Shown in pieces: positions 10,120-12,033 of a stretch of 37,658 bases of DNA. The notes beneath the pieces were generated by a model, which was given only the letters and a program-made list of their open reading frames with translations, was not told where the DNA came from and made no database searches. Source of the DNA: a virus. The DNA lies in the IMG/VR virus record IMGVR_UViG_3300024985_000004, positions 1 through 37,658 of that record; one strand, 5' to 3'. The translations under genes were made by a program, and so were the position numbers. How positions within the stretch are numbered: position 1 is the stretch's first letter; each line of letters begins with the position of its first letter.

Positions 10120-12033
10120 CTAAAACTTACCGGCTGACACGATTAGATTATCAAATGCCTGTCCGTTAGTAGTTGGGATTTGTATCCCAATCGGTGTTAG
10201 TCCTACTAACGTCGTGTCAAAAATTGAGTCAACAGGCAAATCGTTAATGTATACCGTTATCCATCCGCCGTTACGCTCAACAGCAATAACATCGCCCGTT
10301 ACTAGAGGAGCATTGTAAAGATACCACGTGTTTGGAGCTACAGCTGTGCTGCGCCTTAAACACAAATATGGATTGACTCCGTAATTTGTTCCCAATTTCC
10401 AATAATTATTTATATCAAGATAGTTAAAAACTAAATTAAATTCGCCGCCGATATTCCCGCTAAGTTTTACCTCTGCATAAAAATCGCTTACGCCAGGGTC
10501 TATCGTACATAACGCGTTTCCTGCAGTAGCTTGATATGCTTTATTTCCAGATATACCCAGGATTGCCGTCCATTGTTGAGTCCATACATGACCACTATCG
10601 CTTGTGCCTAATGTAGTTGCGCTATCAGCTCGGTTAAACGAATCATATGCAATTGCGCCGCCAGGCTTTACTTGTCGATTTACCATGTCTCTTATCAACG
10701 CCCGGCGAAATTTCTTATTATTTGCTGTTGTTGATGCTATAGATTTTTGGACAGCCCACAGAAATGCCGGCGATGACCCCTGCGCAACAATAGCTCCTAT
10801 TCTAGAGAGGCATAGCAACGCTGTTGTTGCGCCAAAATCGGTACAAATTGGGGTAAAAGCGGGTTTATACCAATTACCCCCTGCTGCCGCACCAGGGTAT
10901 TGAGAAAATTGATTAACGCTAAATTTAGTACCTCCTAACGGCAGATTGGCAGTAAACAAAGTTCCACCACCGTTGCCTTGATCTTGTAACATCCCAATAA
11001 TTTCGCCTTCCCTGGTCGCTATAAAATGTCCATGCCACCAACCGAACCCTCTTGGATGCGGTACTGTTTGCAATACACCTGCTGACCACACGCCCGTGGT
11101 TGGGTCACTACTAGCATTTTCAGTTAAATATATCCCTGCGCTACCCGTAGCAACAAAATAAATCATCTGCCACTTATTAGATTTGTTATTCCAAAAAACA
11201 GAGGGGCACATAGGCACTGCTGTTGTTAAGTTTGTACCAAATGCTAATGCTGGTGTAGACCAAGTCGCTCCATCTGTTGATTTAGATATATAAATGGCCG
11301 AATTATAACCACCCGCAGTACCGCCCGCCCCCCCCCACGACCATGATGCATATAATGTTTTACCGTCTTTAGATACTGATAGTGAGCCATCTCCAACATT
11401 ACCAACCTCCGCCGTAAACAGCGGATTAGTCACCCCAGGGGCTGCAATCCAATTATCACCATCATTGCTGCAATAAATACATGGCGTCTCTTTGTTGGCG
11501 GCTGATCCAGGATAGGGGTTTGCACACGCCCAAAATTTATAGCCTGCAAAACCTGCTGGGATATAGACAGGTACTAAATACACATGCTCTTTTGACAGCG
11601 CTGGATAATATGGCGATGGAAGGTTATCCATAAATTTTAACGGCTCATCTATGGATAGATTATGTATATCAAAAAATTGCGGAATAGGTGATAGGTTTGT
11701 ATTTATATTGCCAACATCACTCCAAGTACTCCCATCCGATACCGACAACACCCCGCCGATCTGACAAATCCCCACCCCAAACTCTGCAGCTGTAGGGCGC
11801 TTAATTAACGCGCTATAGGTCCTGACTTTAGTGGGATTATCCTCATTAATCGTTACGCCAGAACTGCCCCCTGGATCGGTATCGCTCGCCTGCAAAAACG
11901 GGTCGGCAAACAGGGCGGCTCGGGTAGGTGCATCAACATCGACAGACTGCCAGTTGGCAGTAAACACAACACCAACGCGCACATGCTCAGAGAGCTGCGA
12001 TGACGGGGTAACGCGGACGTAAACGATGGCCAT
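10120..12033 (-). CDS. gp35-like docking module fused to Asp-box propeller and C-terminal lectin-like domain
   Basis: This 637-residue protein is probably displayed on the virion and binds or cleaves a glycan. Residues 1-54 align clearly with the start of the gp35-like protein at 14959-15621 (shared YVRV, SQL, FTA.W, DVD, RAA, DP). Residues of about 90-450 look like a sialidase-type propeller with Asp-box motifs SNDGDNW (189-195) and STDGATW (252-258). Residues of about 458-637 resemble a laminin-G/DUF1080-like sandwich (YDSFNRAD, VWTQQWTA). The gene is inserted between tube and chaperone, which are adjacent in Mu, and looks more AT-rich than its neighbours. No complete set of sialidase catalytic residues could be assigned, so a binding role is equally likely. 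Confidence 0.6.
   Translation of the reverse strand: MAIVYVRVTPSSQLSEHVRVGVVFTANWQSVDVDAPTRAALFADPFLQASDTDPGGSSGVTINEDNPTKVRTYSALIKRPTAAEFGVGICQIGGVLSVSDGSTWSDVGNINTNLSPIPQFFDIHNLSIDEPLKFMDNLPSPYYPALSKEHVYLVPVYIPAGFAGYKFWACANPYPGSAANKETPCIYCSNDGDNWIAAPGVTNPLFTAEVGNVGDGSLSVSKDGKTLYASWSWGGAGGTAGGYNSAIYISKSTDGATWSTPALAFGTNLTTAVPMCPSVFWNNKSNKWQMIYFVATGSAGIYLTENASSDPTTGVWSAGVLQTVPHPRGFGWWHGHFIATREGEIIGMLQDQGNGGGTLFTANLPLGGTKFSVNQFSQYPGAAAGGNWYKPAFTPICTDFGATTALLCLSRIGAIVAQGSSPAFLWAVQKSIASTTANNKKFRRALIRDMVNRQVKPGGAIAYDSFNRADSATTLGTSDSGHVWTQQWTAILGISGNKAYQATAGNALCTIDPGVSDFYAEVKLSGNIGGEFNLVFNYLDINNYWKLGTNYGVNPYLCLRRSTAVAPNTWYLYNAPLVTGDVIAVERNGGWITVYINDLPVDSIFDTTLVGLTPIGIQIPTTNGQAFDNLIVSAGKF

Follow-up and report, generated by a model that had tools for sequence, protein, structure and literature searches.

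A putative capsid-decoration enzyme built on a duplicated FluMu_N-type domain in a Mu-like phage

A 637-residue protein of a Mu-like phage, which appears to infect methane-eating bacteria, may be a capsid-decoration enzyme in which a FluMu_N head dock and a junction module carry exchangeable glycan-editing cargo, a reading to which we assign a probability of about one half. In near-identical phages the anchor is retained but the enzyme differs, a pattern suggestive of exchangeable enzyme display on the particle. A broader proposal, offered tentatively and at a shade below even odds, is that the phage belongs to a clade with plug-in capsid enzymes, where a duplicated decoration domain bearing one of several glycan-modifying enzymes competes with plain gp35, and where it would be the head, not the tail, that edits glycans.

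The phage and its structural genes

The window, that is the whole stretch of DNA analysed, comprises 37,658 bases and is an entire viral-contig record. Its structural genes lie on the minus strand in a Mu-like order, namely gpT, gp35-like, sheath, tube, the 637-residue gene, tail chaperone, tape measure, baseplate and fibre (Table 1). The host is probably a methanotroph, Methylomonas or a relative. An ORF at 9576-9860 (minus), read in a different frame, overlaps the end of the chaperone gene, the arrangement usually associated with programmed frameshifting between tube and tape measure. A D12-class adenine DNA methyltransferase is encoded at 114-962 (minus), beyond the fibre genes, where the window has its lowest coordinates. 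The 637-residue protein has four parts, namely a FluMu_N-type domain, a junction module, a propeller and a sandwich.

Table 1. Features of the display protein and neighbouring structural genes in the 37,658-base window
Feature	Coordinates	Strand	Basis or remark
Display protein gene, 637 aa	10120..12033	minus (12033->10120)	single open frame without internal stop; flanked by the tail tube and tail chaperone genes
FluMu_N-type domain, residues 1-54, putative capsid dock	11872..12033	minus	gp35-like match and FluMu_N profile comparison
Junction module, residues 68-108	11710..11832	minus	common to cargo proteins of the slot
Five-bladed propeller, GalNAc-deacetylase-like, residues 153-437	10723..11577	minus	structural and profile match to 6n1a/6n1b
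E182, putative active-site residue (FpGalNAcDeAc E64 position)	11488..11490	minus	conserved column
D215 (FpGalNAcDeAc D100 position)	11389..11391	minus	conserved column
H334 (FpGalNAcDeAc H252 position)	11032..11034	minus	conserved column
CBM66/LamG-like beta-sandwich, residues 460-637	10123..10656	minus	structural matches
Major head protein gpT gene	15632..16528	minus	42% identical to JBD30 gp38
gp35-like head protein gene	14959..15639	minus	paralogue of the fusion's N-domain; directly after major head gene
gp35-like N-domain, residues 1-53 from second Met	15463..15621	minus	paralogue of the fusion's residues 1-54
Sheath gene	12523-13983	minus	assigned by gene order
Tail tube gene, upstream flank of slot	12039..12401	minus	PF10618 1e-9; phrog_185
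Tail assembly chaperone gene, downstream flank of slot	9775..10095	minus	PF10109 3e-8

A second copy of the gp35-like head domain

The first-pass annotation had matched the first 54 residues to the start of the gp35-like head protein, and this homology is borne out, with 29 of 54 positions identical (54%; BLASTP E 2e-14) and a score of 55 bits for the fusion's N-terminal segment against a profile of gp35-like N-domains. These two genes gave the only N-domain matches in the whole 37.7-kb record. Chance similarity was ruled out by the BLASTP value and by column-shuffle controls.

When the N-domain family alignment (A1, consisting of 14 N-domains from related loci) was compared by hhalign with FluMu_N (PF17891), which includes Mu gp35, HI1506-like proteins and JBD30 gp39, the match had a probability of 95 and an E of 2.4e-8; a second profile-profile run with other settings scored 33, with none of 100 column shuffles exceeding 9.6. 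The N-domain of the trio, that is of this phage and two near-identical phages, scored a weak 11.3 when compared alone, and so the FluMu_N membership of the 637-residue protein is established through its gp35 paralogue and not directly. By this route of profile comparison, residues 1-54 can be assigned to the FluMu_N family. The 637-residue protein had no curated Pfam match, including at the FluMu_N cut-off of 25.8 bits. Its gp35-like relatives (two Methylomonas proteins) score 13-18 bits, also under that cut-off, and in Methylomonas fluvii the top FluMu_N match in the genome, sub-threshold at 18 bits, falls on the gp35-like gene. Established members range widely, with 40.8 bits for Mu gp35, 61.4 for the HI1506-like protein of a Vibrio phage and 22.5 for JBD30 gp39, the last again below the curated threshold. 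The N-domain profile found nothing relevant among PDB sequences, and the FluMu_N link was therefore built from family scans and profile-profile comparison.

The fusion of a FluMu_N domain to cargo was seen only in the trio. In 369 sampled genomes of the class there were eight FluMu_N matches, all in frames of 97-238 aa and none of them fused, and the 237 genomes of the Methylomonas family contained gp35-size frames only (218-248 aa), with zero fusions. Whole-length relatives of the protein were absent from 50,697 phage records, no close whole-protein relatives were found in genomes, and the sole whole-length match among viral contigs was one that is 100% identical. A tree of 35 N-domains, weak in that it draws on 55 columns, joins the trio in a clade (100/99) near the Methylomonas-type gp35 proteins. 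Two Zoogloeaceae prophages (L013, 6424-7459; L015, 2952-3667) encode, immediately behind gp35, another FluMu_N-like protein of divergent sequence with a C-terminal beta domain of its own. These copies represent an independent duplication inside the head cluster, and duplication of the FluMu_N domain has thus occurred more than once; a scan with the Zoogloeaceae paralogue brought no further members.

A cargo slot between tube and chaperone

Two other viral contigs encode the same N-terminus in the same place. DNA identity to these sister phages stands at approximately 88% between the tube gene and codon 107, beyond which it is lost until the chaperone gene, with homology resuming at 10083-10097. 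In one sister (L005) the cargo is of SGNH type, a call made by eye from a GDSL motif, followed by a K1-lyase C-terminal domain (PF24146, 5.7e-11), and in the other it is beta-helix-like (by eye). Values of dN/dS are 0.11-0.22 for residues 1-107 and 0.13-0.22 for residues 1-54, so that purifying selection preserves the dock even as cargo is replaced. The middle of the tape measure also differs between this phage and its sisters (L005/L006); in two prophages of one genome (L145 and L146) that have the same SGNH-like cargo (identical as printed) it differs as well.

Loci for a survey of the slot were found through the tube protein. The tube and chaperone genes are adjacent in Mu and in most Gallionella- and Zoogloeaceae-type relatives, in which the slot is empty, and a cargo gene lies between them in every Methylomonas-type phage examined. 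The view that the gene interrupts a normally adjacent pair thus holds against Mu and most betaproteobacterial relatives but not for the Methylomonas-type phages, where cargo in this position is the rule. Slot cargo in the relatives consists mostly of deacylases, that is GDSL/SGNH proteins (by Pfam in L007, L020 and L028, weakly in L008, and by motif or eye in L010, L021, L143, L145 and L146) and NodB proteins (a NodB deacetylase in L019, a NodB-like protein by eye in L035), with beta-helix-like cargo seen by eye in L144 and L147. Downstream of the cargo in two loci is an ORF of about 307 aa that by eye resembles phage integrases/tyrosine recombinases (L028, 11966-12889, where it precedes the chaperone gene; L035, 6137-7060), and which might help cargo exchange.

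Most slot cargo proteins begin with a module of about 50 aa related to residues 68-108 of the trio. A profile made from nine other cargo N-termini ranked the trio next after the cargo proteins themselves (the training set plus L127) among 4343 ORFs, at E 0.001-0.08, from which it follows that the 637-residue protein combines the slot's own junction module with an added FluMu_N domain. Slot cargo proteins outside the trio do not have FluMu_N, so another dock exists, and docking through residues 68-108, perhaps on the tail, stays a rival, for which this makeup is the chief ground. The protein would then be a spike attached to the tail or baseplate, with residues 68-108 as the true dock and the FluMu_N copy either an accessory or engaged with a new partner. 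This agrees with Methylomonas-type cargo starting directly with the related module, with the placement of the gene between tail tube and chaperone, and with the annotation of propeller relatives in other phages as minor tail proteins; it is nonetheless rather unlikely, as it leaves an added domain kept under purifying selection unexplained and as FluMu_N, where it has been seen, binds the capsid (PMC11445458).

A deacetylase-type propeller and a glycan-binding-type sandwich

Structure prediction from the single sequence gave a pLDDT of 32 for the whole protein. An AlphaFold2 model built from 35 related rows (alignment A3) reached a mean pLDDT of 71; values exceed 70 across nearly the whole C-terminal sandwich and over the greater part of the propeller, and residues 63-167 lack resolved structure. 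The first-pass annotation had expected a propeller with Asp-boxes, and in the model a five-bladed propeller indeed occupies residues 153-437, within the 90-450 interval where such a fold had been predicted; the motifs, by contrast, are not sialidase Asp-boxes. S189-NDGDN-W195 and S252-TDGAT-W258 conform to SxDGxxW, which lacks one residue of the canonical sialidase box (SxDxGxxW), and this shorter form is common to the GalNAc-deacetylase family. The best solved match is the GalNAc deacetylase of Flavonifractor plautii (6n1b, Z 24.1 over 271 residues at 3.3 A, with 15% identity over the structural alignment), the next-best propellers after 6n1b/6n1a reach Z 18-19, and the family profile finds the F. 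plautii enzyme at E 2.9e-46. An Asp-box sialidase (GH33, six blades) was rejected in view of the five blades in the model, the SxDGxxW motifs, and the profile search, where 6n1a outranked the sialidases by a wide margin. Judged by profile and model, the propeller is of the GalNAc-deacetylase type, and its putative activity is probably deacetylation.

The active-site set of the F. plautii enzyme comprises E64, H97, D100 and H252. Residues E182, D215 and H334 are invariant in a six-row propeller alignment, and the position of H97 is occupied by N212, a position that varies in other phage members too. The replaced histidine would be in keeping with a propeller that binds glycans on the virion in the manner of a lectin-like adhesin, with no catalysis, as would the precedents of the decoration proteins Hoc, pb10 and gp8.5, which act through carbohydrate binding (PMC7602432), and of the RcGTA head spikes, which bind capsule (PMC7296036). 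Set against the three invariant residues and the hydrolase folds of the other cargo in the slot, this adhesin explanation seems improbable, and we favour an enzymatically active protein.

The laminin-G-like C-terminal domain proposed earlier was recovered as a CBM66/LamG-like fold, in that residues 464-637 align with CBM66 (4azz) at Z 18.1 over 157 residues as a concanavalin-like beta-sandwich. Mycobacteriophage Douge gp20 matches the sandwich at Z 19, and minor tail proteins of Gordonia phages are 27-32% identical to the C-terminal part (tblastn). As modelled, the sandwich is a putative domain of glycan-binding type.

Location on the particle

In phage JBD30, gp39, whose gene immediately follows that of the major head protein, was seen by cryo-EM as trimers on the threefold and pseudo-threefold axes; it is present on about half of the capsids and its residues 1-52 are disordered (PMC11445458). 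The ordered part of gp39 is the FluMu_N domain. As the fusion's N-domain falls in this family, gp39 sits on the capsid, and the head proteins are homologous, the head is the best inference for where the protein resides, and the fusion is most likely a component of the virion located there. In gpT, K65 occupies the position of JBD30 K66, a residue in contact with the minor capsid protein and replaced by glutamine in Mu; of the JBD30 decoration-protein contacts E91, S95, D96 and K100, three of four are changed in the fusion, with only D96 kept (read from the alignment). The fusion gene, unlike its gp35-like paralogue, is not encoded directly after the major head gene but within the tail cluster, which counts against a head location. 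Cryo-EM of Mu showed a head without cement proteins and did not resolve gp35, which the authors thought might be connector-related (PMC11915804).

The SGNH cargo of L020 (10373-11662) matches PHROG 9703, 'head decoration', at E 1e-17; no annotated phage relative of this cargo was found, and the match is for this reason not taken as evidence of location. It is a hint that other phages also put SGNH domains on heads.

A function outside the particle, as a moron-type protein that is secreted or that alters the host surface in the lysogen, would suit a lone cargo gene inserted among structural genes, and there is no signal proving virion incorporation. The protein carries a structural-protein domain, its gene has the orientation of the structural genes, and the cargo types match phage receptor-binding enzymes (PMC13123978), all of which make a role off the virion very improbable.

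A proposed mechanism and its implications

On the preferred reading, that of a capsid-decoration enzyme, the duplicated FluMu_N domain would attach to the head, at or close to the threefold positions expected for the gp35-like protein. Behind it come the short junction module and a C-terminal cargo that can be exchanged, here a GalNAc-deacetylase-type five-bladed propeller with a CBM66/LamG-like glycan-binding domain. This cargo may act during adsorption on the methanotroph's capsule, EPS or LPS glycans, by deacetylation or some other modification, and relatives would recombine after codon 107, swapping cargo to track changes in host glycans. The first-pass annotation had suggested a docking module reused to show a glycan-binding or glycan-cleaving domain. 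Its docking half gains from the duplication of the gp35-like module and from a family that has a capsid member, JBD30 gp39; its cargo half agrees with a carbohydrate-active propeller and a glycan-binding-type sandwich, and is sharpened to a relative of GalNAc deacetylase joined to a CBM66/LamG-like domain, with C-terminal parts that are exchanged.

The new element would be that a probable capsid dock has been redeployed to carry exchangeable enzymes. A review of decoration proteins describes structural and adhesive functions, and its one 'enzym-' word stands in another context (PMC7602432). A literature search with most subscription papers outside its reach turned up no described case of enzymatic cargo on a FluMu_N domain. 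If the reading is true, a decoration domain bearing interchangeable enzymes would put the phage head to a use that differs from the structural or adhesive decorations known, gp35 of Mu-like phages would gain a testable function in capsid docking, and a dock of the type of residues 1-54 would provide a short anchor of natural origin for capsids, with evidence that it tolerates different cargo. The bias of the cargo towards deacylases is in line with recent evidence for temperate phages removing acetyl groups from capsules instead of breaking the capsules down. Klebsiella prophages commonly encode receptor-binding proteins with an SGNH domain, two of which were shown to be esterases (PMC13123978).

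Comparison with known systems

Each component has known counterparts. The propeller shares with the F. plautii GalNAc deacetylase (6n1a/6n1b) its fold, its SxDGxxW motifs and the E64/D100/H252 positions, and differs in its low identity, in the H97 replacement and in being phage-borne. Minor tail proteins of Arthrobacter phage Ingrid (gp21), Microbacterium phage Leaf (gp77) and Vibrio phage HY01 have a homologous propeller, but with other N-terminal docks and in other gene neighbourhoods. The C-terminal fold recurs in CBM66/LamG-like 4azz, Gordonia phage Mellie gp30 and mycobacteriophage Douge gp20, with homology to Gordonia minor tail proteins detected by tblastn.

Functional analogues exist for both display and chemistry. 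T4 Hoc, T5 pb10, N4 gp17 and the RcGTA head spikes are head-displayed, glycan-directed domains, as this protein would be, but their docks and domains are unrelated and they are described as adhesive, not enzymatic. The SGNH deacetylase receptor-binding proteins of phage G7C and of Klebsiella prophages strip acetyl groups from surface glycans, much as is proposed for the cargo here, but they are tail fibres or spikes and use an enzyme fold other than the propeller. The closest counterparts of the dock are the FluMu_N/Mu gp35 family, to which residues 1-54 belong by profile comparison, and JBD30 gp39 (8rkc), with a homologous major capsid protein as a further shared feature; in Mu and JBD30 the FluMu_N domain is without an enzyme fusion, whereas here a second copy, encoded outside the head cluster, carries a cargo of 580 aa.
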